Of a stretch of DNA of 64,000 bases, positions 1 to 8,550 are shown piece after piece. The notes under the pieces were generated by a model. It was not told the origin of the DNA, did no database searches, and saw nothing but the letters and a program-made list of their open reading frames with translations. A program made the translations under genes and the position numbers. Source of the stretch: Bifidobacterium saguini DSM 23967 (GTDB lineage: Bacteria; Actinomycetota; Actinomycetes; Actinomycetales; Bifidobacteriaceae); the NCBI RefSeq assembly GCF_000741715.1, contig NZ_JGZN01000008.1, forward strand, positions 248,001-312,000, written 5' to 3'. Each line of letters opens with the position of its first letter. Position 1 is the stretch's first letter.

Positions 1-670
1 TAATTTCATGAATGCGCGCATCAATATAGACTCGTGCTGATTTCTTTTTTGATAGTTCGGGAAGACATATATCTTTAAGCGAGCATGCGCGACATTCTTT
101 CCTGACTCTGACTTTTGGTGTGTGCCCACGCACATAAAAGTCATGCATCTGACGAAACATTTCCGTTACTGTATTACGTAATGGCTCATCAAATTCAACG
201 ACTTCTCTATGCCTTGTCCCCTGATAGAATAACGCCCCTTCACGTATATTACAGGCCAACATTTCCTCTAAACATATCGCCTCAGCACATAATTGCAGCC
301 TATCGGCATCCTGCGTTTTAGGCCGTCCGTGCTTATATTCAATCGGATAAGGTAACCACGAACCGCTGCGCCCTTGCAACGGCACACCATCCGAAGACCG
401 CCGAAACTCCACAACATCGCAGGCTCCGGTTACCCCTAATCGGCGTGAGAATACCTTCAAATCGCGCAGGATAAGCAAATCTCCTCGCTTTTCCGAAGCA
501 TCATAATCATGTGCCCGCTCATGTTCCAATAATCCAGCCGTGGTCAACACATTGTCTTCCCACAACTGCTCAATATGTATCAGCGCCCACTGTCGTCGGC
601 AAAATGAAAAATGCTGGATACCCGAAAGAGCCAACCAATCCTCTTCTGGATAACTTGCCGGTTCCATCAT
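1..670 (-). CDS. cas4: Cas4 exonuclease, type I-C (C-terminus cut by window edge)
   Basis: Cas4 is a RecB-like iron-sulfur nuclease that trims prespacers and checks PAMs during spacer acquisition. I translated this frame by hand: 223 residues are visible with no stop before base 1. One Cys is near residue 24 in FSFCRRQW, and three more are in CRACSLKDIC close to the C-terminus, which together make the expected 4Fe-4S set. A nuclease-type motif IEYKHGR is central. The ATG at 670 follows AAAGGGG; a second in-frame ATG is at 667. It is last of the visible cas5c-8c-7-4 run; cas1, cas2 and the array should lie just left of the window. Nearly full length for the family (about 220 aa), so little is missing. 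Confidence 0.93.
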   Translation of the reverse strand, partial: MMEPASYPEEDWLALSGIQHFSFCRRQWALIHIEQLWEDNVLTTAGLLEHERAHDYDASEKRGDLLILRDLKVFSRRLGVTGACDVVEFRRSSDGVPLQGRSGSWLPYPIEYKHGRPKTQDADRLQLCAEAICLEEMLACNIREGALFYQGTRHREVVEFDEPLRNTVTEMFRQMHDFYVRGHTPKVRVRKECRACSLKDICLPELSKKKSARVYIDARIHEI

Positions 671-779: not shown

Positions 780-1712
780 TTACAGTACGCCATCAACCAT
801 TTCACTTACGGCAACAGAATCTGGAATCAAGTCCTTGTTTACGTTTACTGCATAATCCCCAAAGCTACGCGCAATATCAACGCCGTCACGTTTGTGAACA
901 TCGACGCTGTCGAACAGCTTCCACGAAGGCGCATCGCCAAGCGCACTATCATGTTTGAATACGTACAGCTTGCGCACTGCCATGCTGCCTCGTGCTGCAG
1001 AACGATCAAATTCAAACATGTTCAGAATCGACTGCCACAGCAGGTTAAGGTCTTCATCGCTGAATCCGGTGACATTCTGCGCAAGCTTTGCAGACACATA
1101 ACCGTTCATGCGATACAAACCGTAAGGGATGATGAACTTGTTACCCATCGTATTATTCTTTTCCGCAGCATCCGCTTCTGTCGTCACAGCAACACGGGTG
1201 ATGGAAATCTCCTGGATACTCACCGGATCGATTGAACGGGCAAAACCAAGCTGGACGGGGCCACGAACTTGCCCACAGGCGAGACTACCTTTGACGAAAG
1301 TAGTCATTACCGCACCAAAGGTGCGAATATCGAAGAAGTTCGCACACATATAATCGCGTAGGCGACGATCCAGTTCAGGATTATCTTTTTTCAAAGCTTT
1401 AATTTCTTTTGCGAAGTCCTTGTCTTCGGGCCTTGCATCAATGTGTTCAGCCTCCAACGCCTCACTGTCAAGACGATTGAGTGTCTTCCGATTCTGAATA
1501 TAGATGCGCCACGGAGATTCTTCGCCCATAGCAGTTTGCACATAGTCACGAATCTTACGCTTGATGCACACATCGGTCACGAGTCCGTTACCAGTTTCAA
1601 GATCAACGCGCGGCATGTTACCCGAATCAGGGTCGCCATTGGGGTTACCATTCTCCACGTCAAAAAGAATCGTGAAGTCATAACGGTTTTCAATGGGTTT
1701 GCGTTCAGTCAT
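780..1712 (-). CDS. cas7: Cas7 (Csd2), type I-C Cascade backbone
   Basis: Forms the helical backbone that holds the crRNA spacer in type I-C Cascade. It is 310 aa and begins MTERKPIENRYDFTILFD, followed by the characteristic ENGNPNGDPDSGN stretch of the Csd2 family. I chose the ATG at 1712 because it follows AAGGAGCAGAC, and because the family begins just before this conserved strand. A longer in-frame start at 1841 would put 43 unrelated residues inside cas8c. It overlaps the cas8c stop by 8 bases, so the two are translationally coupled. Confidence 0.95.
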   Translation of the reverse strand: MTERKPIENRYDFTILFDVENGNPNGDPDSGNMPRVDLETGNGLVTDVCIKRKIRDYVQTAMGEESPWRIYIQNRKTLNRLDSEALEAEHIDARPEDKDFAKEIKALKKDNPELDRRLRDYMCANFFDIRTFGAVMTTFVKGSLACGQVRGPVQLGFARSIDPVSIQEISITRVAVTTEADAAEKNNTMGNKFIIPYGLYRMNGYVSAKLAQNVTGFSDEDLNLLWQSILNMFEFDRSAARGSMAVRKLYVFKHDSALGDAPSWKLFDSVDVHKRDGVDIARSFGDYAVNVNKDLIPDSVAVSEMVDGVL

Positions 1713-3501
1713 TGTCTGCTCCTTGGTTATCGTCCTCGATGGTCTTACTAGTCTTGTTGAATCGCTGTTGATTTTCGAAATAGTATCCAAGCTGGAAAGC
1801 CCCACGCTCTTCGAGCGTAAGTCTCGACGGATAGTGGTCACCCACCTTCCCAGTCAATTCGCCTAAAGCCTTTTCCAATTTGACCTTATAGCCTTGCGAC
1901 TGCCAGGTTTTGCGCATATGTTTCGCTGCGAGGTCGCCCAGAATCGGGAATATACGAGCGGGCGTCGTGGATGCGCTGGTGAAATATTTATCCTTAATCG
2001 TCGTATTGATGCCAGGAATGGCCGCCAACTGAATCTGTTCGTATATAGAGAACAATCGGCCAAGCACATATGGCACGTAATCACTGTCTCTATTAATATC
2101 CACTTGCAGTACCTCCTTGAACTGCTCGTTTGTTGTTTTTCGTGAGTAGTACGCCTTGATGATTGCTGCTTTATCAGGCGAAATATCACGTTCGGCATTA
2201 ATGCGAATCTCAATAGCATTAATCAAACTTGCCGGATATGCAGTACCGTTGAGAATCGCCTTCATAACCGCACCAGCCATTTCCGACGATACCTTCACGT
2301 TTTTGCTCTGTTGCCTGATGGTTTGATTCAGCAATCGCCATGTCGGCAGAAACACTGTCGTGTCGTAACTGGGGCGTCGTATCTCAAGGTCCCGGTAATG
2401 CTGCCATATATTTCGTGCGAATGCACCGAATGTGTTTGTCAAGTAAAAACGCACCGACAACCGTGCAGCATTCGGCGACAATGCAAGGACATGGAACTCT
2501 TCGTTTGGATTGAGACAGATTCCCTCAAAATCGTACGGTCGACCTTGGGCCAAGGCCTGCGTAGCTTTCTTGATTGTCAATTCGTCCAGACCGGCGGATT
2601 GCTTTTCCGGATTATTTGACGACCAAGCGAAAGCCATTCCGCCGAATGAATCAACGTACGCGGTCTCACCACATTGCGCCCACGAAACAATAGTGTCGTC
2701 TCCAATACGTTGAACACGATCACGATCCGCGAGTAGCGTGTTAAGCGCCGTTGTATATTCGTATGCTTCTCGTTGACTCATTGGTGCATTTTCGTTTTGT
2801 TCCGCACCATGCGAACAGAATGCCGGTGCATTGAACGAAATCAATGATGCGCCAGATGACTGAGCGCCAGCGACTCCCTTGATTTTAGGGTGAATTTTAG
2901 CCGGAATGACCGGTTCACCGGAAATCAGGCTAAATGACAAAGCACCCTCATCGTCGTCTTCCCGATCGTAATATGCGTTCCAGGCTTCTTGCACCGCGGG
3001 GCAATCACCAACGAACATGGTGTTCTTCCCATCGTTATACTGCAGAACGAAATTCAAAGTCAGCGAAGATTCCCAAGTCTTGTCCCCCATCAACTGTTGA
3101 GCAGTTTTCCACTGGGGAGCATTCTCAAAGAACGCGAGAGCGGCTATAGCGGGAGCATCAGTGACGCCTTCCAATATGCGTTGATGCAAATCAGTGCATG
3201 CCTGAAACGCCCGCAGCGCACGTTCCGGCTTACCTTTGGCATCAAACCCCAGCATGTATGCAACAGTATCGCACAGAAAGTTCGCCGCTATACCAGATGA
3301 TCTGGGGACTCGAGCTGGTATCGAAATAATATTTACCGGCTTCTTATTGGTATGGTCACCCAGTGGATGTACTGAAATCAAAGTACCTTTATCATCAATG
3401 ACCAGACCATACGGAACATTGATGTTGTCATAGCCGTAGACCGGAGCTTGTTGCTTAGACACTAATACGTTGTACTCGTTGCACAAATCACTAATAATCA
3501 T
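1705..3501 (-). CDS. cas8c: Cas8c (Csd1), type I-C Cascade large subunit
   Basis: Large subunit of type I-C Cascade; it recognises the PAM and recruits Cas3. In type I-C an internal start usually also yields the small subunit Cas11c. The protein is 598 aa, the usual size, starting MIISDLCNEYNVLV; the region around SFNAPAFCSHGAEQNENAP is typical of Csd1. The start overlaps the cas5c stop by 4 bases (ATGA) and the end overlaps cas7 by 8 bases. I did not pin down an internal cas11c start. Confidence 0.95.
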   Translation of the reverse strand: MIISDLCNEYNVLVSKQQAPVYGYDNINVPYGLVIDDKGTLISVHPLGDHTNKKPVNIISIPARVPRSSGIAANFLCDTVAYMLGFDAKGKPERALRAFQACTDLHQRILEGVTDAPAIAALAFFENAPQWKTAQQLMGDKTWESSLTLNFVLQYNDGKNTMFVGDCPAVQEAWNAYYDREDDDEGALSFSLISGEPVIPAKIHPKIKGVAGAQSSGASLISFNAPAFCSHGAEQNENAPMSQREAYEYTTALNTLLADRDRVQRIGDDTIVSWAQCGETAYVDSFGGMAFAWSSNNPEKQSAGLDELTIKKATQALAQGRPYDFEGICLNPNEEFHVLALSPNAARLSVRFYLTNTFGAFARNIWQHYRDLEIRRPSYDTTVFLPTWRLLNQTIRQQSKNVKVSSEMAGAVMKAILNGTAYPASLINAIEIRINAERDISPDKAAIIKAYYSRKTTNEQFKEVLQVDINRDSDYVPYVLGRLFSIYEQIQLAAIPGINTTIKDKYFTSASTTPARIFPILGDLAAKHMRKTWQSQGYKVKLEKALGELTGKVGDHYPSRLTLEERGAFQLGYYFENQQRFNKTSKTIEDDNQGADND

Positions 3502-4154
3502 GACTTCACCTCCGCCGATGCAACGTCAAGCACACCGTCATTCAGTGCAGCACGGAAGAATAATGGTTTTGGAGATGCGGGATTGCGGTAGTCAAAATCA
3601 AAGAACATGTATCCCAAATCACGATGCCCTTGTTCGAATCCAATCGGATCCTCATTCTTCTTCCAGAGTTGAAAATCTGCAGGAAATTCCCTCGTACCAA
3701 AATACGGGTGATGGAAATATTGACCTTTCGCAGCACGTCTCATGAACATACTTTGGAATTTCTCTGCGGAATCTTCAGGTGCCGCTTTTCTGCAATCAAT
3801 CGTGAAATGCGCATCAATCACATATCTGACATTGCGCAAAACGGTAGCTGAACGTTGCTGGATGGATTCGGATGTATAAATAGCACCACCGTCGCCTTTC
3901 CCCTCCGCCATCGATTTTATTTTGCTCACATTAATGACGCTGTCGACCTCATTACGGCGAATGCTGTCAAATCGGATAGGATTGAGTACGTAAATACGAT
4001 CTATCCGCCAGCACAATCCTGGATGCCAGAAAATAGCCTCCAGGATTCCGCGCGCCGCTGATGGTGTCATGACATCATACGTGACTCGTTCTGTCTTCAT
4101 CTCGGGACGCGAGAAAAGCGCATAGTCGCCCCAAACTTCTAAGCGAATCGGCAT
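3498..4154 (-). CDS. cas5c: Cas5c (Cas5d), crRNA-processing endonuclease of type I-C
   Basis: Type I-C lacks Cas6, and Cas5c cuts the pre-crRNA at the base of the repeat hairpin, then caps the 5' handle in Cascade. It has 218 aa starting MPIRLEVWGDYALFSRPEMK, the conserved N-terminal ferredoxin-like strand, followed by the TPSAARGILEAIFWHP helix typical of the family. It is the first gene of the cas5c-8c-7-4 operon. Its promoter lies at about 4,216-4,244, and its ATG is about 55 bases downstream of the predicted transcript start. The same promoter is the predicted target of the crRNA-like element at 4,364. Confidence 0.95.
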   Translation of the reverse strand: MPIRLEVWGDYALFSRPEMKTERVTYDVMTPSAARGILEAIFWHPGLCWRIDRIYVLNPIRFDSIRRNEVDSVINVSKIKSMAEGKGDGGAIYTSESIQQRSATVLRNVRYVIDAHFTIDCRKAAPEDSAEKFQSMFMRRAAKGQYFHHPYFGTREFPADFQLWKKNEDPIGFEQGHRDLGYMFFDFDYRNPASPKPLFFRAALNDGVLDVASAEVKS

Positions 4155-4215: not shown

Positions 4216-4251
4216 ACTATAGTCTATTTATTAGACTAAAGCAAGTAAGAA
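4216..4251 (-). promoter_or_regulatory. cas5c operon promoter and predicted CreR target
   Basis: On the minus strand a -35 TTGCTT (4239-4244) is separated by exactly 17 bases from a -10 TATAGT (4216-4221). Immediately upstream, TTC (4249-4251) reads as a type I-C PAM. The 17 bases after it (4248 down to 4232), beginning TTACTTGCTTTAGTCTA, match the spacer-like segment at 4396-4412 except at positions 6 and 12. The match covers the whole -35 box and part of the -35/-10 spacer, so Cascade bound there would block initiation. Confidence 0.75.
4221..4237. promoter_or_regulatory. Inverted repeat between -35 and -10 of the cas promoter
   Basis: AGTCTA-TTTAT-TAGACT is a perfect 6-bp inverted repeat that fills the -35/-10 spacer of the cas5c promoter. 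It could be the operator of an unidentified protein repressor. The predicted crRNA-like target overlaps its distal half. No cognate regulator is recognisable in the window. Confidence 0.45.
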
Positions 4252-4363
4252 AAATAAATCTCTTATTAGTTTTAATCTAAAGGACCATTGATATTATGTA
4301 AGAGGTGTTCGGAACCGCTCTTGCTGAACGTAGATGAACACCTACCTGTGCTCACTTCTCACA

Positions 4364-4474
4364 GTCGTTCTCCTTCTGGAGACGTGGATTGAAATTTACT
4401 AGCTTTTGTCTAGGAGCATGGGTCTCCGGTGTGCTCGACTACCACATAAAGTCGAGCACACCAATGATGTTTTT
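4364..4474 (+). ncRNA. CreR-like crRNA-like RNA predicted to autorepress the cas operon
   Basis: A single degenerate type I-C repeat runs from 4364 to 4395, with the start GTCGTTCTCC, a small hairpin TCTCC/GGAGA and the invariant 3' end GTGGATTGAAAT. A spacer-like segment of about 32 bases (4396-4427) follows, then a 13-bp hairpin and a T-run. There is no second repeat. The first 17 spacer-like bases match the cas5c promoter beside TTC, failing only at positions 6 and 12, which are the bases flipped out of every crRNA heteroduplex; beyond position 17 the match ends. Such short seed-side pairing is known to let Cascade bind without Cas3 cleavage. Promoter not clear; best candidates TTGCTG (4321) with TACCTG (4343), or TATTAT at 4292. 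Confidence 0.8.
4428..4474 (+). terminator. Hairpin terminator shared by the crRNA-like RNA and cas3
   Basis: A perfect 13-bp stem (GGTGTGCTCGACT, 4428-4440, and its complement, 4450-4462) with a 9-base loop is followed by TTTTT at 4470-4474, reading rightward. It ends two bases before the cas3 stop codon, so it also sits directly after cas3 on the other strand and may separate cas3 from the cas5c operon. Confidence 0.7.
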
Positions 4475-4475
4475 G

Positions 4476-6953
4476 TTAAACAAAAATGCCATCAGCTGCT
4501 ACATTCTCCAGCTGCAGTCCCAGCCGAGATGAGTACAGGCTCAAATCTCGCAGAATATAGCAGTTCTCTTCTACAACCCCAGTCTCTTCCCCAACAGATA
4601 ACACCGCACCTGCTGACTGTAGCTTTTCAAGATGCTGCGGCCATACGTTAACTGCATATTTGCCCAACTTACGAAATAGCGCACGATTAATGTCACCTTG
4701 CTCCAGCTGATTACATAATCGCGCACCTTCATCTCCCAACTCATCATCAGACAGTGGAATATACACCGGCACTGTCGGCGTATCGATAAGTTTGAACAAT
4801 CGAGCAATACGCTCAAAAGACATACCCTTGTCGTGCCCATGCAGAGGAACAATTCGATGCACATCAAAAGCATCATTACCGACGATTGTATTGTGAGTAT
4901 TATCGCCCAGCATCCCCAGCAGTTCACCAAAATATGCACGAACCGCATCGTTTGAGATCAAATCCGAATACCGAGCTGCCGTCTCACGATATGCCACAAG
5001 ATTCTGCTGCAGAAATGGCGCCTGCCCACCTGTAGTGGAGAACACATACACCATACTCTCCCCTGCAGGGCGCTTACCTTCGCGATTGCATCGACCGGCC
5101 GCTTGAATAATGGAGTCCAGTCCCGTCTCTTCACGATAAGCAACCGGGAAATCCACATCTACACCAGCCTCAATCAACGAAGTAGACATCACGCGGCATG
5201 GCTCCCCTGCCGCAAGACGATCCCGAATTCTGCTGAGCAGACGCTTACGATCGGCGGCGCACTGCAGCGTTGTAAGGCAGAATGTCCCTTCTTGTGACTC
5301 ACTCCCCTGGCTAAGACGACTATACAGATACTGTGCTTTCTTACGCGTGTTCACTACGCACAGCACTTGTACATGTCTACCTAGTCGATCTGCGAGCGCG
5401 GCCAACTCGATATCACCAATACGTTCAACTGTCACGCGACGGAATTTTTCATAATCCGTATTTGTGAATGGCGATATTTCAGGAATATCAGCGTATCTTC
5501 CATCACTAAATGATTGGTCAAATAACCGTTGTAATTCCGGTTGTGTGGCGGTGCAAAGCACTGCAGTAGCGCCATAGTGCTCCACAAGTTCGGCAATCAC
5601 CTTAACGCATGGCCGCAAGTACGGCACCGGCAACGTCTGCGCTTCATCAAACACGATGACGGAGTTTGCGATGTTATGCAATTTGCGGCACCGGGAAGTC
5701 TTATTCGAGTACAGACTCTCAAAAAATTGCACTGCTGTAGTGACTACAATCGGCGCATTCCAGTTCTCTGCTGCAAGCGCACGCTTAAGATCGATTCCGT
5801 CCATATCGGACTCATCCTTAAGCTGATATGGCGCTTCCGAATAATGAGGCAACACGGAGCTCTCGCCAAAAAGCTTCTCAAATTGACCGACGGTCTGATC
5901 AATAATCGATGTGTAGGGAATTACATAAATAACCCGTTGCATGTTATTCGTGCGAGCATGCTCAAGCGCAAATGTAATTGACGCAATGGTTTTGCCACTA
6001 CCGGTAGGAGCCGTGAGAGTGTACAGGCCCGGTTTGCATGATTCGCTACGGCCTTGATCAAGACACTGCGCAAGAAGCTCACACCTCTTAACGTCAAGAG
6101 GTGTTTTGTGCGAGCTTTCAAGATACCGACGGGCAACACTTTCCACGACATCAGTCAGATGGTTTATCCGACTATGATTCTCAGCTTGATATTTAGCGGA
6201 TACTGTCAATGCTGCTTCGTGTAGGACATTCCACGCTGGGGCTTGGCACCCCGACAGTGTTTCCGAACCTAGTCGCTCTTTCAGCTGCTCCAACAACTGG
6301 TGTTCGGCACGATCTTCACGATTGGAGGTAAAGAATTCCGCATCAAGCCGGTCCCCATCTACCAATGCTGACAGCAGCATACGCGTTAACATCATGTCGG
6401 AGTAGCATTGGTCGTCTTCTGTTTGTCTGACTTGGGAGTTCTTCTCTAAAGCAGTCACTCTCTTCGCTTGTAACGCTGATTGCGGAACGCATATTTGTCT
6501 TTCCCACGCACCAGCCAGAGTAAGCGGATTATTATCGCCCGCGCTAAAAGCTCTGTTCATACGCGCGCTAAATGTTGAGCCTTCCTGATCCCCTGCGCTT
6601 CCAAAATCGGTTAATCCTGCGTGATGACCTGCCACCGCCAAGGCCGACGCAAAGCGACGGTTCTGCACCAACAGCATTGCCCCTGCAGTAGAATGATCTA
6701 CCTTGCCAGTATGCTCAGGATCTCGAATCCTTTTCTGAAAACCCTGCGAGTACTTGCCGAGATCATGAAACAGGCCAGCCAACAATCCGTCATCCAGGTG
6801 ACTGAATTGCTGTGCAAAACCACCAGTCAGACACCCGGCCATGCACAAGTGTTCAACACAAGTCTCATATCCATGATCACTCGTGCGAGCGTAAAAAGGG
6901 CTAGAGTCTGCATATTGACTCATGGAGTTTGAACGATTATTGCTTCCTTGCAT
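4476..6953 (-). CDS. cas3: Cas3 helicase-nuclease, type I-C
   Basis: Single-strand nuclease and 3'-5' helicase recruited by target-bound Cascade. An N-terminal HD nuclease domain is marked by LFHDLGK about residue 63, followed by HSTAGA. The helicase motifs are Walker A APTGSGKT, FDEAQ (motif II), CTATQP (motif III), SLIEAGVDVD (motif V) and QAAGRCNREG (motif VI). I prefer the ATG at 6953 (825 aa), which follows AGAAAGG; an ATG at 6977 has no ribosome-binding site. It is separated from cas5c by 321 bases holding the crRNA-like element, so it is probably its own transcription unit; TATAAG about 7,020 on the minus strand may be its -10. Confidence 0.95.
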   Translation of the reverse strand: MQGSNNRSNSMSQYADSSPFYARTSDHGYETCVEHLCMAGCLTGGFAQQFSHLDDGLLAGLFHDLGKYSQGFQKRIRDPEHTGKVDHSTAGAMLLVQNRRFASALAVAGHHAGLTDFGSAGDQEGSTFSARMNRAFSAGDNNPLTLAGAWERQICVPQSALQAKRVTALEKNSQVRQTEDDQCYSDMMLTRMLLSALVDGDRLDAEFFTSNREDRAEHQLLEQLKERLGSETLSGCQAPAWNVLHEAALTVSAKYQAENHSRINHLTDVVESVARRYLESSHKTPLDVKRCELLAQCLDQGRSESCKPGLYTLTAPTGSGKTIASITFALEHARTNNMQRVIYVIPYTSIIDQTVGQFEKLFGESSVLPHYSEAPYQLKDESDMDGIDLKRALAAENWNAPIVVTTAVQFFESLYSNKTSRCRKLHNIANSVIVFDEAQTLPVPYLRPCVKVIAELVEHYGATAVLCTATQPELQRLFDQSFSDGRYADIPEISPFTNTDYEKFRRVTVERIGDIELAALADRLGRHVQVLCVVNTRKKAQYLYSRLSQGSESQEGTFCLTTLQCAADRKRLLSRIRDRLAAGEPCRVMSTSLIEAGVDVDFPVAYREETGLDSIIQAAGRCNREGKRPAGESMVYVFSTTGGQAPFLQQNLVAYRETAARYSDLISNDAVRAYFGELLGMLGDNTHNTIVGNDAFDVHRIVPLHGHDKGMSFERIARLFKLIDTPTVPVYIPLSDDELGDEGARLCNQLEQGDINRALFRKLGKYAVNVWPQHLEKLQSAGAVLSVGEETGVVEENCYILRDLSLYSSRLGLQLENVAADGIFV

Positions 6954-6999
6954 TATTGGACCTTTCTGTCCATACATCTTTTTATCTAGAGTACGCTAA

Positions 7000-7460: not shown

Positions 7461-7745
7461 TTATGCGGCTTGGATACTGATACGACCGCCGAGCGCGTTG
7501 ATGACCTTGAGGATGGTCTGGAAGCTGGGGTTGCCATCCTTGCTGAGGCTCTTGTAGAGGCTTTCACGTCCCACGCCTGCCTCCTTGGCGATTTGGCTCA
7601 TGCCTCGTGCTTTGGCGACGTTGCCGAGCGCCATCTGCATGAGTGCGGGGTCGTTGTATTCCGCGATGGCGTTAAGGTAGGCGATGACATCCTGTTCGTC
7701 TTCCAGGTATTCGCTGGTGTCATAGTCGGTAAATTCGGCGCTCAT
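7461..7745 (-). CDS. HigA-like antitoxin (addiction module antidote family)
   Basis: 94-aa DNA-binding antitoxin with a C-terminal helix-turn-helix (AKEAGVGRESLYKSLSK). It should neutralise the upstream RelE/ParE-type toxin and repress the shared promoter. Toxin first, antitoxin second, overlapping by 4 bases (ATGA), which is the usual order of this HigBA-like family. The last 45 residues are identical to those of the prophage antitoxin at 40,028, while the N-terminal halves have diverged. Confidence 0.9.
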   Translation of the reverse strand: MSAEFTDYDTSEYLEDEQDVIAYLNAIAEYNDPALMQMALGNVAKARGMSQIAKEAGVGRESLYKSLSKDGNPSFQTILKVINALGGRISIQAA

Positions 7746-8047
7746 TGCTGCTCCTTGTAGTCGTTGAGAATATCATGGGCCCTTTTGATGTCAACTTGCT
7801 GCGTGCTTTTGTCGCCTCCTGCGAGCAGGAGCATGAGCACGTTGCCTCGCATGGTGAAGTAGACGCGATATCCGGCCCCGAGATGAAAACGCATCTCGCT
7901 TACCGCCCCGCCCGTCGGTTTGATGTCGCCAAGTGGACGACCTGCAAGCCGGCATGCGTCGAGTCGGGCCTGTATCGCCGCCTTCGCTTCATGGTTCTTG
8001 AGTTTTCTGAACCATTTGGCGAATTCGTTGGATTGTTTGATTTCCAT
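7742..8047 (-). CDS. RelE/ParE-family toxin (HigB-like, addiction module killer)
   Basis: 101-aa toxin of the small RelE/ParE fold; relatives are ribosome-dependent mRNA endonucleases. Conserved signals are the central GDIKPTGGAVSEMRFHLGAGYRVYF and the LLLAGGDKSTQQ-DIKRAH block. The ATG at 8047 is chosen because homology with the second copy at 40,303 starts there; the open frame extends upstream only through non-homologous sequence. The antitoxin follows with a 4-base overlap. Confidence 0.9.
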   Translation of the reverse strand: MEIKQSNEFAKWFRKLKNHEAKAAIQARLDACRLAGRPLGDIKPTGGAVSEMRFHLGAGYRVYFTMRGNVLMLLLAGGDKSTQQVDIKRAHDILNDYKEQQ

Positions 8048-8149
8048 ACCATTACTGTATCCCATAGAATACATCAAAACAAGTAGGGGTGGATTACACA
8101 GCTTGAGCGGAATCTCCGGATAGTAGCGCATGCCAGTGGCGGGTAAAGC

Positions 8150-8550
8150 AATTCTTGCGCAGAAGCGCGGCCCATGTGCGGCTAATGGCGATGCCGTTGA
8201 TGCCCTAGGTCTCGTTGAGCGCGTCGGTGCGGCAGATCGGTCTTCGAATTGATGACGTGGTAGATCACGTAGTCGAGGGCGCGGACGATGGCTCCGACCT
8301 GGTCCTGCCGGATGGACTGGATGATCTGGAAGCGGTTGTCCTCGTCGGCCCATTTGATTTCGGAGGTGGCTCGCGTGGTGGTCCACACCTTGAAATCCTT
8401 GCCGCTGACGTAGTTGAGCTCCCGCTCGTAGCTGGACTTGGTTTGACCTTCGGCGGTCATCGGTTTCGCTCATCTTGGATTCCTTGAGCTGTTACAGCTC
8501 ATCGCCCGCGGCCTTGTTGTCCTTGGCGCGCTTCTTCCATCCACGCCATA
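8150..8550 (-). pseudogene. Remnant of a phage scaffold-capsid gene pair
   Basis: On the minus strand, 8550-8470 is a close but degraded copy of the scaffold gene interior at about 33,600-33,680 (shared DNA includes GCCTTGTTGTCCTTGGCGCG). It runs directly into a fragment (8460-8180) whose protein resembles residues about 70-125 of the intact capsid: KWADEDNRF against QWADSDYQL, then ARALDYVIYHVIN against ARALDLGVFYRVN. After a frameshift INGIAISR matches VNGIAMSR of the capsid. Internal stops and a deletion joining the two genes mark it as debris of an older related prophage. Confidence 0.75.

Follow-up and report, generated by a model that had tools for sequence, protein, structure and literature searches.

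Type I-C is a common CRISPR subtype. Standalone repeats and mini-arrays lying by cas genes, with spacers that match cas promoters, were reportedly surveyed by Shmakov et al. (2023), and tracr-L, a natural single guide of type II-A, is said to be an RNA that lets the effector repress its own promoter; Liu (2023) is said to be the paper on the crRNA-like RNA CreR. According to the available text of PMC13131331 and PMC12737573, CreR is partly complementary to a cas promoter and the effector uses it to repress its own genes. Autorepression of this kind is listed for types I-B, I-E and V-A in the available part of PMC13131331, while in that of PMC12737573 array crRNAs are described as competing and anti-CRISPR proteins as relieving the repression. 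CreA, the guide of the haloarchaeal I-B CreTA modules, has a partial match behind 5'-TTC-3', pairs at positions 1-5 and 7-11 and keeps a toxin RNA repressed; positions 6 and 12 lie outside the crRNA-target pairing of type I-B, changes of the CreA guide at these positions are without effect, and in H. hispanica CreA has a one-repeat form that ends in a T-rich terminator (PMC8501985, available text). Finally, Racr are solitary-repeat anti-CRISPR RNAs, described in the available text of PMC10651486 as repeat mimics encoded by viruses or plasmids, and a type I-C Racr exists that comes from Bifidobacterium prophage DNA.

The locus described here lies in Bifidobacterium saguini, at the left end of the window, that is, the whole 64,000-nt stretch of DNA that was analysed. 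It shares with CreR a predicted crRNA-like RNA partly complementary to a cas promoter, with CreA the partial match behind TTC and the unread positions 6 and 12, and with Racr the solitary I-C repeat in Bifidobacterium DNA. It differs from CreR as described in the available text of PMC13131331 and PMC12737573, where type I-C is not named, in that one repeat is followed by a hairpin, the unit is divergent to cas5c, pairing covers positions 1-5, 7-11 and 13-17, and cas3 lies outside the unit predicted to be repressed. Compared with CreA, there is a third paired block at positions 13-17 and the target is cas5c. The elements ascribed to Shmakov et al. resemble it in having a standalone repeat by cas genes and a spacer matching a cas promoter, whereas tracr-L works with Cas9 and a tracrRNA in place of Cascade and a repeat. 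No CreR of type I-C was found in our literature search, although the survey of Shmakov et al. may include I-C loci. The principle of autoregulation is already known, as is the one-repeat form with a terminator (I-B CreA, available text of PMC8501985); as far as the literature search goes, the occurrence in type I-C is new, and so are pairing in a third block, the constant position of the element between cas3 and cas5c and the extent to which it is conserved. The best explanation of the locus, to which we give a probability of roughly 0.88, is that it encodes a CreR-type guide with which the I-C Cascade would repress cas5c-cas8c-cas7-cas4-cas1-cas2, cas3 staying outside. Such autorepression by Cascade had been proposed from the window alone (the original prediction), and it gains support from comparative evidence, namely a recurring layout and the covariation of guide and promoter.

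The type I-C cas operon, recognised by NCBIfam profile hits, occupies the minus strand in the order cas3, a gap of 321 nt, cas5c, cas8c, cas7 and cas4, with cas1 and cas2 beyond the left edge (Table 1). The CRISPR array is also left of the window (stretch L003, 6242-8301) and contains 31 repeats of GTCACCCTCCTCACGGAGGGTGCGGATTGAAAT. Upstream of cas3, at 7461-8473, there is a toxin-antitoxin pair of the HI1419/HI1420 type; the toxin frame has 243 aa, of which the toxin domain takes up no more than the C-terminal 95, and the start of the frame may therefore be wrongly assigned.

Table 1. Features of the type I-C locus and of the element in the cas3-cas5c gap (window coordinates unless stated otherwise).
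Feature	Position	Strand	Remarks
cas2	left of window, stretch L003 8627-8932		NCBIfam
cas1	left of window, stretch L003 8923-9954		NCBIfam
cas4	2-670	-	TIGR00372; cut by window edge
cas7 (Csd2)	780-1712	-	TIGR02589
cas8c	1705-3501	-	TIGR01863
cas5c	3498-4154	-	TIGR01876; first gene of predicted repressed unit
Predicted cas5c -10, TATAGT	4216-4221	-	17 nt from -35
Protospacer TTACTTGCTTTAGTCTA	4232-4248	-	in predicted cas5c promoter; 4251-4232 reads TTC+TTACTTGCTTTAGTCTA
Predicted cas5c -35, TTGCTT	4239-4244	-	weak consensus match, inside protospacer
PAM, TTC	4249-4251	-	directly precedes protospacer
Possible guide-RNA promoter (TTTTAA, 16 nt, TATTAT)	4270-4297	+	tentative; weak score, 8.7
Lone degenerate type I-C repeat	4364-4395	+	identity to array repeat of the genome, 23/33 aligned positions
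crRNA 5' handle TGGATTGAAAT	4385-4395	+	last 11 nt of lone repeat; 10/11 vs array handle CGGATTGAAAT
Guide TTACTAGCTTTTGTCTA, 17 nt	4396-4412	+	positions 1-5, 7-11 and 13-17 match target
Unpaired spacer-like tract	4413-4427	+	between guide and hairpin; 10/15 identical to B. colobi
Strong hairpin GGTGTGCTCGACT..AGTCGAGCACACC	4428-4462	+	predicted RNA 3' end, replacing second repeat
T run	4470-4474	+	7 nt past hairpin stem
cas3	4476-6977	-	TIGR01587, TIGR01596; upstream of element, outside predicted repressed unit

The lone degenerate repeat that had been reported between cas3 and cas5c is present on the plus strand, and its comparison with the true array repeat shows that the two are related, the handle being well kept. 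As in CreR, we find a CRISPR repeat outside the array and within the cas locus, with its crRNA handle kept, followed by a spacer-like tract partly complementary to the predicted cas promoter, at a site flanked by the PAM. The terminator of the original prediction stood only in part: a strong hairpin does follow the tract (z = -5.1 for the stretch holding it, folding against shuffles), but the T run is set apart from its stem, and the hairpin was rejected as an intrinsic terminator both by the terminator scan and by a separate intrinsic-terminator rule. The -10 of the possible guide-RNA promoter is kept in Bifidobacterium colobi, whose Cas5c is 96% identical to that of the window.

Of the 17 guide positions, 15 match the minus-strand target, the sole exceptions being 6 and 12. 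The earlier alignment, made by eye, was thus reproduced to the base, including the TTC that precedes the protospacer. None of 100,000 shuffled guides reached 15/15 at the 20 sites of the intergenic region preceded by TTC or TTT. By pattern search, the protospacer is the only exact PAM-plus-guide fit in the 2.79 Mb genome; with up to two mismatches allowed, the sole other match is the guide itself, which carries AAT at the PAM place, and a backward control pattern gave one match in the genome within the same limit. A CreTA toxin-antitoxin module was considered and rejected, since no toxin promoter was found as a guide target: the sole genomic target within two mismatches is the one upstream of cas5c. 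A weaker second guide match (12/15, CTC) is seen on the other strand, near the likely promoter of the guide RNA, both in the window (plus strand, about 4264-4280) and in B. colobi (L004).

The degeneracy of the lone repeat (23 of 33 positions kept) would also be expected of a functionless remnant of a CRISPR array, a stray repeat with an old spacer whose match is due to chance or is the trace of past self-targeting. We give this next to no probability: shuffled guides never match as well, guide and target change together across loci (see below), and B. colobi shares with the window all 15 paired guide positions and all 20 positions of the PAM plus protospacer, compared with 173/217 in the rest of the gap. 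At guide position 6 the two species differ.

The element was searched for in other I-C loci. The first set comprised 83 loci, that is, the best 80 of 212 Cas5c relatives, the Bifidobacterium loci L087 and L089, and the window; L084, L085, L086 and L088 were dropped before counting as duplicates of the same genomes, and L063, with only 137-140 nt of upstream sequence, was scored as having no element. A scan without a PAM rule, in which only near-perfect handles on the opposite strand from cas5c were accepted, gave 31 elements in this set, all with sites behind TTC or TTT. When up to three handle mismatches were tolerated and TTC or TTT was required, the element was found in 32 of the 83 loci, and the scores fell into two classes, 32 at 11-15 and 51 at 4-9, with none between. 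Scoring all 17 positions equally and without a PAM rule returned the same site in 32/32 cases, 23 of them behind TTC and 9 behind TTT; TTC precedes 2.2% of the positions in the regions scanned. The weakest element is that of L089, whose 11/15 is reached by 9% of shuffled guides. A candidate in L059 (11/15 at -99, behind CTT) was discarded as a chance match, its handle-like word not being a repeat.

For the second set, 291 Clostridia genomes were drawn evenly, 45 of which had a Cas5c match, and the best 30 of these 45 loci were taken; none is shared with the first set, and 29 were assessable after L135, with 30 nt of upstream sequence, had been left out. Five of the 29 carry the element (scores 13-15, all with TTC, under the PAM rule) and the other 24 score 9 or less; these include L148, with 558 nt upstream and a gap of 70. 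Among 112 Bifidobacterium genomes, some Cas5 match was obtained in 18 and a close match in six, five of which carry the element (weakly in L089). The sixth, Bifidobacterium aerophilum (L005), has an intact cas5c frame and a short cas3-cas5c gap without the element; it represents either natural loss or ancestral absence and is a useful comparison strain.

The presence of the element follows the width of the gap. It occurs in 35 of the 41 cas3-cas5c gaps of 200 nt or more (31/37 in the first set, 4/4 in the second) and in none of 60 gaps under 100 nt (0/37 and 0/23), the intermediate gaps of 100-200 nt holding it in 1/8 and 1/1 cases; for these counts the upstream frame was the longest open one, unannotated, and L063, L147 and L135 were left out. 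The six wide-gap loci of the first set that lack the element (L019, L020, L043, L044, L055 and L075) were re-scanned without the handle rule, together with L060 and L080, which have gaps of 175 nt. Matches at 12 or more came up in L019, L020 and L044 only; judged by eye, these are terminator stems or simple repeats and were rejected.

The anatomy recurs as well. A strong hairpin lies 3' of the guide in 33 of the 37 elements (z below -3, single-base shuffles, positions 18-85), and in folds begun at guide position 1 the start of the largest stem falls at 19-34 in 34/37; it starts inside or at the end of the guide in L141 and L152 (position 17) and in L016 (position 15). The intrinsic-terminator rule failed by the window is passed by 23 of the 37. 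An array is found in the same stretch for 22 of the elements, and in 20 of these the lone and the array handle are 0-2 of 11 positions apart; in the other two, L053 and L066, the handle was cut one base out of register, and the unusual TAGAAA of the lone repeat is also present in their arrays. A second repeat 3' of the spacer, as in a mini-CRISPR, is not visible by eye in the 37 sequences, where a very degenerate one could be missed.

A simple rule describes the pairing. Over the 37 elements, the target is matched at positions 1-5, 7-11 and 13-17 in 530 of 555 cells, a rate that is partly built in because the scan by which the sites were picked scored just those 15 positions. On the other hand, the chance-level match at the remaining positions is not built in, and the equal scoring of 17 positions gives the same sites: position 6 matches in 12/37 elements (11.5 expected from base composition) and position 12 in 9/37 (9.9 expected), while positions 18 onward match at about chance in the 32 first-set loci. 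The end of pairing at position 17, as originally claimed, is seen both in the window sequence and in these loci. The third block is weaker than the others (27-30 matches out of 32 at positions 13-17, first set). As in type I-B (PMC8501985, available text), positions 6 and 12 are likely not read by the CRISPR complexes. At two places where the guide base is free, the target base is biased in the first-set elements: base 6 is T in 24/32 and base 18 is A in 25/32.

The guides themselves are diverse, forming about 20 groups among the 32 first-set elements. Bifidobacterium stellenboschense and many Clostridia have wholly different guides, each matching its own promoter region behind TTC or TTT. When guides were swapped between loci, 915 of 992 combinations scored 7-10 of 15, and only 14 reached 13 or more, 12 of them between related loci (the exceptions being L040 on L010 and L065 on L073); in this test L048 scored 8 on its own locus, its target lying beyond the 300 nt used. 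Among related loci, 39 joint changes of guide and target were counted at the paired positions, as against 9 confined to the target and none confined to the guide, in 16 pairwise comparisons among 14 loci that are not independent of each other. Drift of the spacer without a matching change in the promoter, which was to be looked for in homologous loci, was thus not seen, and the alignments indicate that guide and promoter coevolve across many loci.

These data bear on two further explanations. According to the first, the lone repeat would be a Racr that occupies Cas5c or Cas7 and whose guide is irrelevant. The known type I-C Racr from Bifidobacterium prophage DNA (PMC10651486, available text) lends some colour to this idea, which we nevertheless regard as extremely improbable: Racr are described there as encoded by viruses or plasmids, but the element is located inside the cas operon, and its paired guide positions, which covary with the target, are its most constrained part. 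On the same grounds its membership in the Racr class was rejected. According to the second, guide and target would be two copies of a DNA operator for a protein repressor, which would bind the palindrome TAGTCTA-TTTAT-TAGACTA and the related site at 4396-4412. In the window this palindrome does sit between the -35 and -10 of cas5c, overlapping the end of the match; it is not kept in B. colobi, however, where the guide match is intact, and in other loci guide and target have very different sequences, with PAM and 5+1+5+1+5 match nevertheless retained. We consider a shared operator highly improbable.

Repression by a guide-directed Cascade also depends on where the site lies relative to the promoter. 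The predicted cas5c promoter has weak hexamers; it was ranked best by a weighted scan, and a strict promoter scan of the window found no cas5c promoter. The protospacer overlaps the predicted -35, in agreement with the claim that it covers this box, whose resemblance to the consensus is weak, and the paired site covers the predicted -35 in B. colobi and B. stellenboschense, too. Relative to the best cas promoter of each of the 37 loci, 7 sites overlap or touch it, 21 lie 1-15 nt upstream of the -35, 7 follow the -10 by up to 20 nt, and 2 are elsewhere. Strict overlap with the promoter core occurs in only 6/37, below the 12.2 expected at random, which speaks against a simple -35 block. In loci from outside Bifidobacterium, pairing mostly falls next to the hexamers. 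Since strict overlap is below chance and sites are found both upstream and downstream, the mode by which transcription is blocked may differ between species, and Cascade binding may even have a positive effect on cas transcription. Cascade covers more than 17 bp of DNA, which leaves a block of the polymerase as the likeliest effect, in a geometry that is itself inferred.

The guide-directed Cascade could instead act mainly on the guide's own divergent promoter, or on both promoters, and so brake the guide and not cas5c. Several Clostridia protospacers are indeed located between back-to-back predicted promoters (e.g., L010, L057 and L065), and the weaker second site of the window and B. colobi is near the likely promoter of the guide. 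However, the target overlaps the best guide promoter in 12/37 elements, close to the 10.6 expected at random, whereas a position on or next to the best cas promoter is found in 35/37, with 20.6 expected for random placement, the limits of "near" having been chosen after the strict-overlap result was seen. We judge such a brake on the guide to be a long shot.

The autorepression of the cas5c unit that we favour can be outlined from the parts that are read directly in the DNA, i.e., handle, PAM, match at positions 1-5, 7-11 and 13-17, hairpin, unique genomic target and guide-promoter coevolution. Transcription would start on the plus strand from the possible promoter at about 4270-4297 and yield a short crRNA-like RNA with repeat handle, 17-nt guide and 3' hairpin. 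Cas5c would cut at the repeat stem and leave the 11-nt handle, and the I-C Cascade would assemble on the resulting guide RNA. Held on the cas5c promoter, Cascade would sterically block RNA polymerase. In other type I Cascades, an R-loop that stops short of the PAM-distal end is not known to trigger Cas3 cleavage. Since no more than 17 of about 35 positions can pair here, the R-loop would stop short in the same way, and Cas3 is not expected to be licensed. With the predicted cas5c promoter placed downstream of cas3, Cascade levels would be set by the loop, as would probably those of the adaptation genes if they share one transcript, and cas3 would remain outside. By analogy with CreR, an excess of array crRNAs competing for Cascade, or anti-CRISPR proteins that disable it, may relieve the repression.

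A similar unit with the opposite orientation occurs in another actinobacterial family. Three of its six I-C loci (L118, L119 and L121) carry it on the cas5c strand, 128-133 nt downstream of a TTC-flanked target that is matched at 14/15 in each. L122 has the same sense layout and spacing at 11/15, a value reached by chance in L117 and L120 under the same loose scan. The handles of these sense-oriented units are less closely similar, so we treat the units as a lead and not as a result of equal strength. A sense-oriented guide would be made from the very promoter that it targets.

Taken more broadly, we think it probable that type I-C possesses an ancient guide of its own for autoregulation, namely an RNA with one repeat and a hairpin cap that lies between cas3 and cas5c, has been repeatedly rewritten and still pairs with its own promoter in three five-base blocks. 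The wide gap would then exist to house this guide, control of Cascade would be split from that of the Cas3 nuclease, and a second, sense form, made from the promoter that it represses, would be present in the cas leader of the other actinobacterial family. Type I-C would thereby gain a predicted RNA-guided thermostat, and the loci would provide dozens of natural experiments on the positions that Cascade reads: 15 are read, every sixth is ignored, and none counts past 17. How bacteria limit their Cascade levels and respond to anti-CRISPR attack could then be tested directly in Bifidobacterium strains, which are harmless. For deletion or cloning of I-C cas operons, a wide cas3-cas5c gap should be regarded as likely to carry a regulator.

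Mobile DNA was searched as well. None of 13 plasmid I-C loci of other groups (from 52 matching records) reached 11, the best scores being those of Phocaeicola (10) and Zymomonas (9), and scans of viral_contigs with two guide patterns found no copies of the guide. By blastn against phages, the region gave short matches in four records, the best being MT838487.1 (L153). Positions 1-470 of this record, which was deposited as "Bacteriophage sp.", contain seven I-C repeats close to the lone repeat of the window; given these repeats and the lack of annotation, it seems to be a bacterial array submitted under a phage name.
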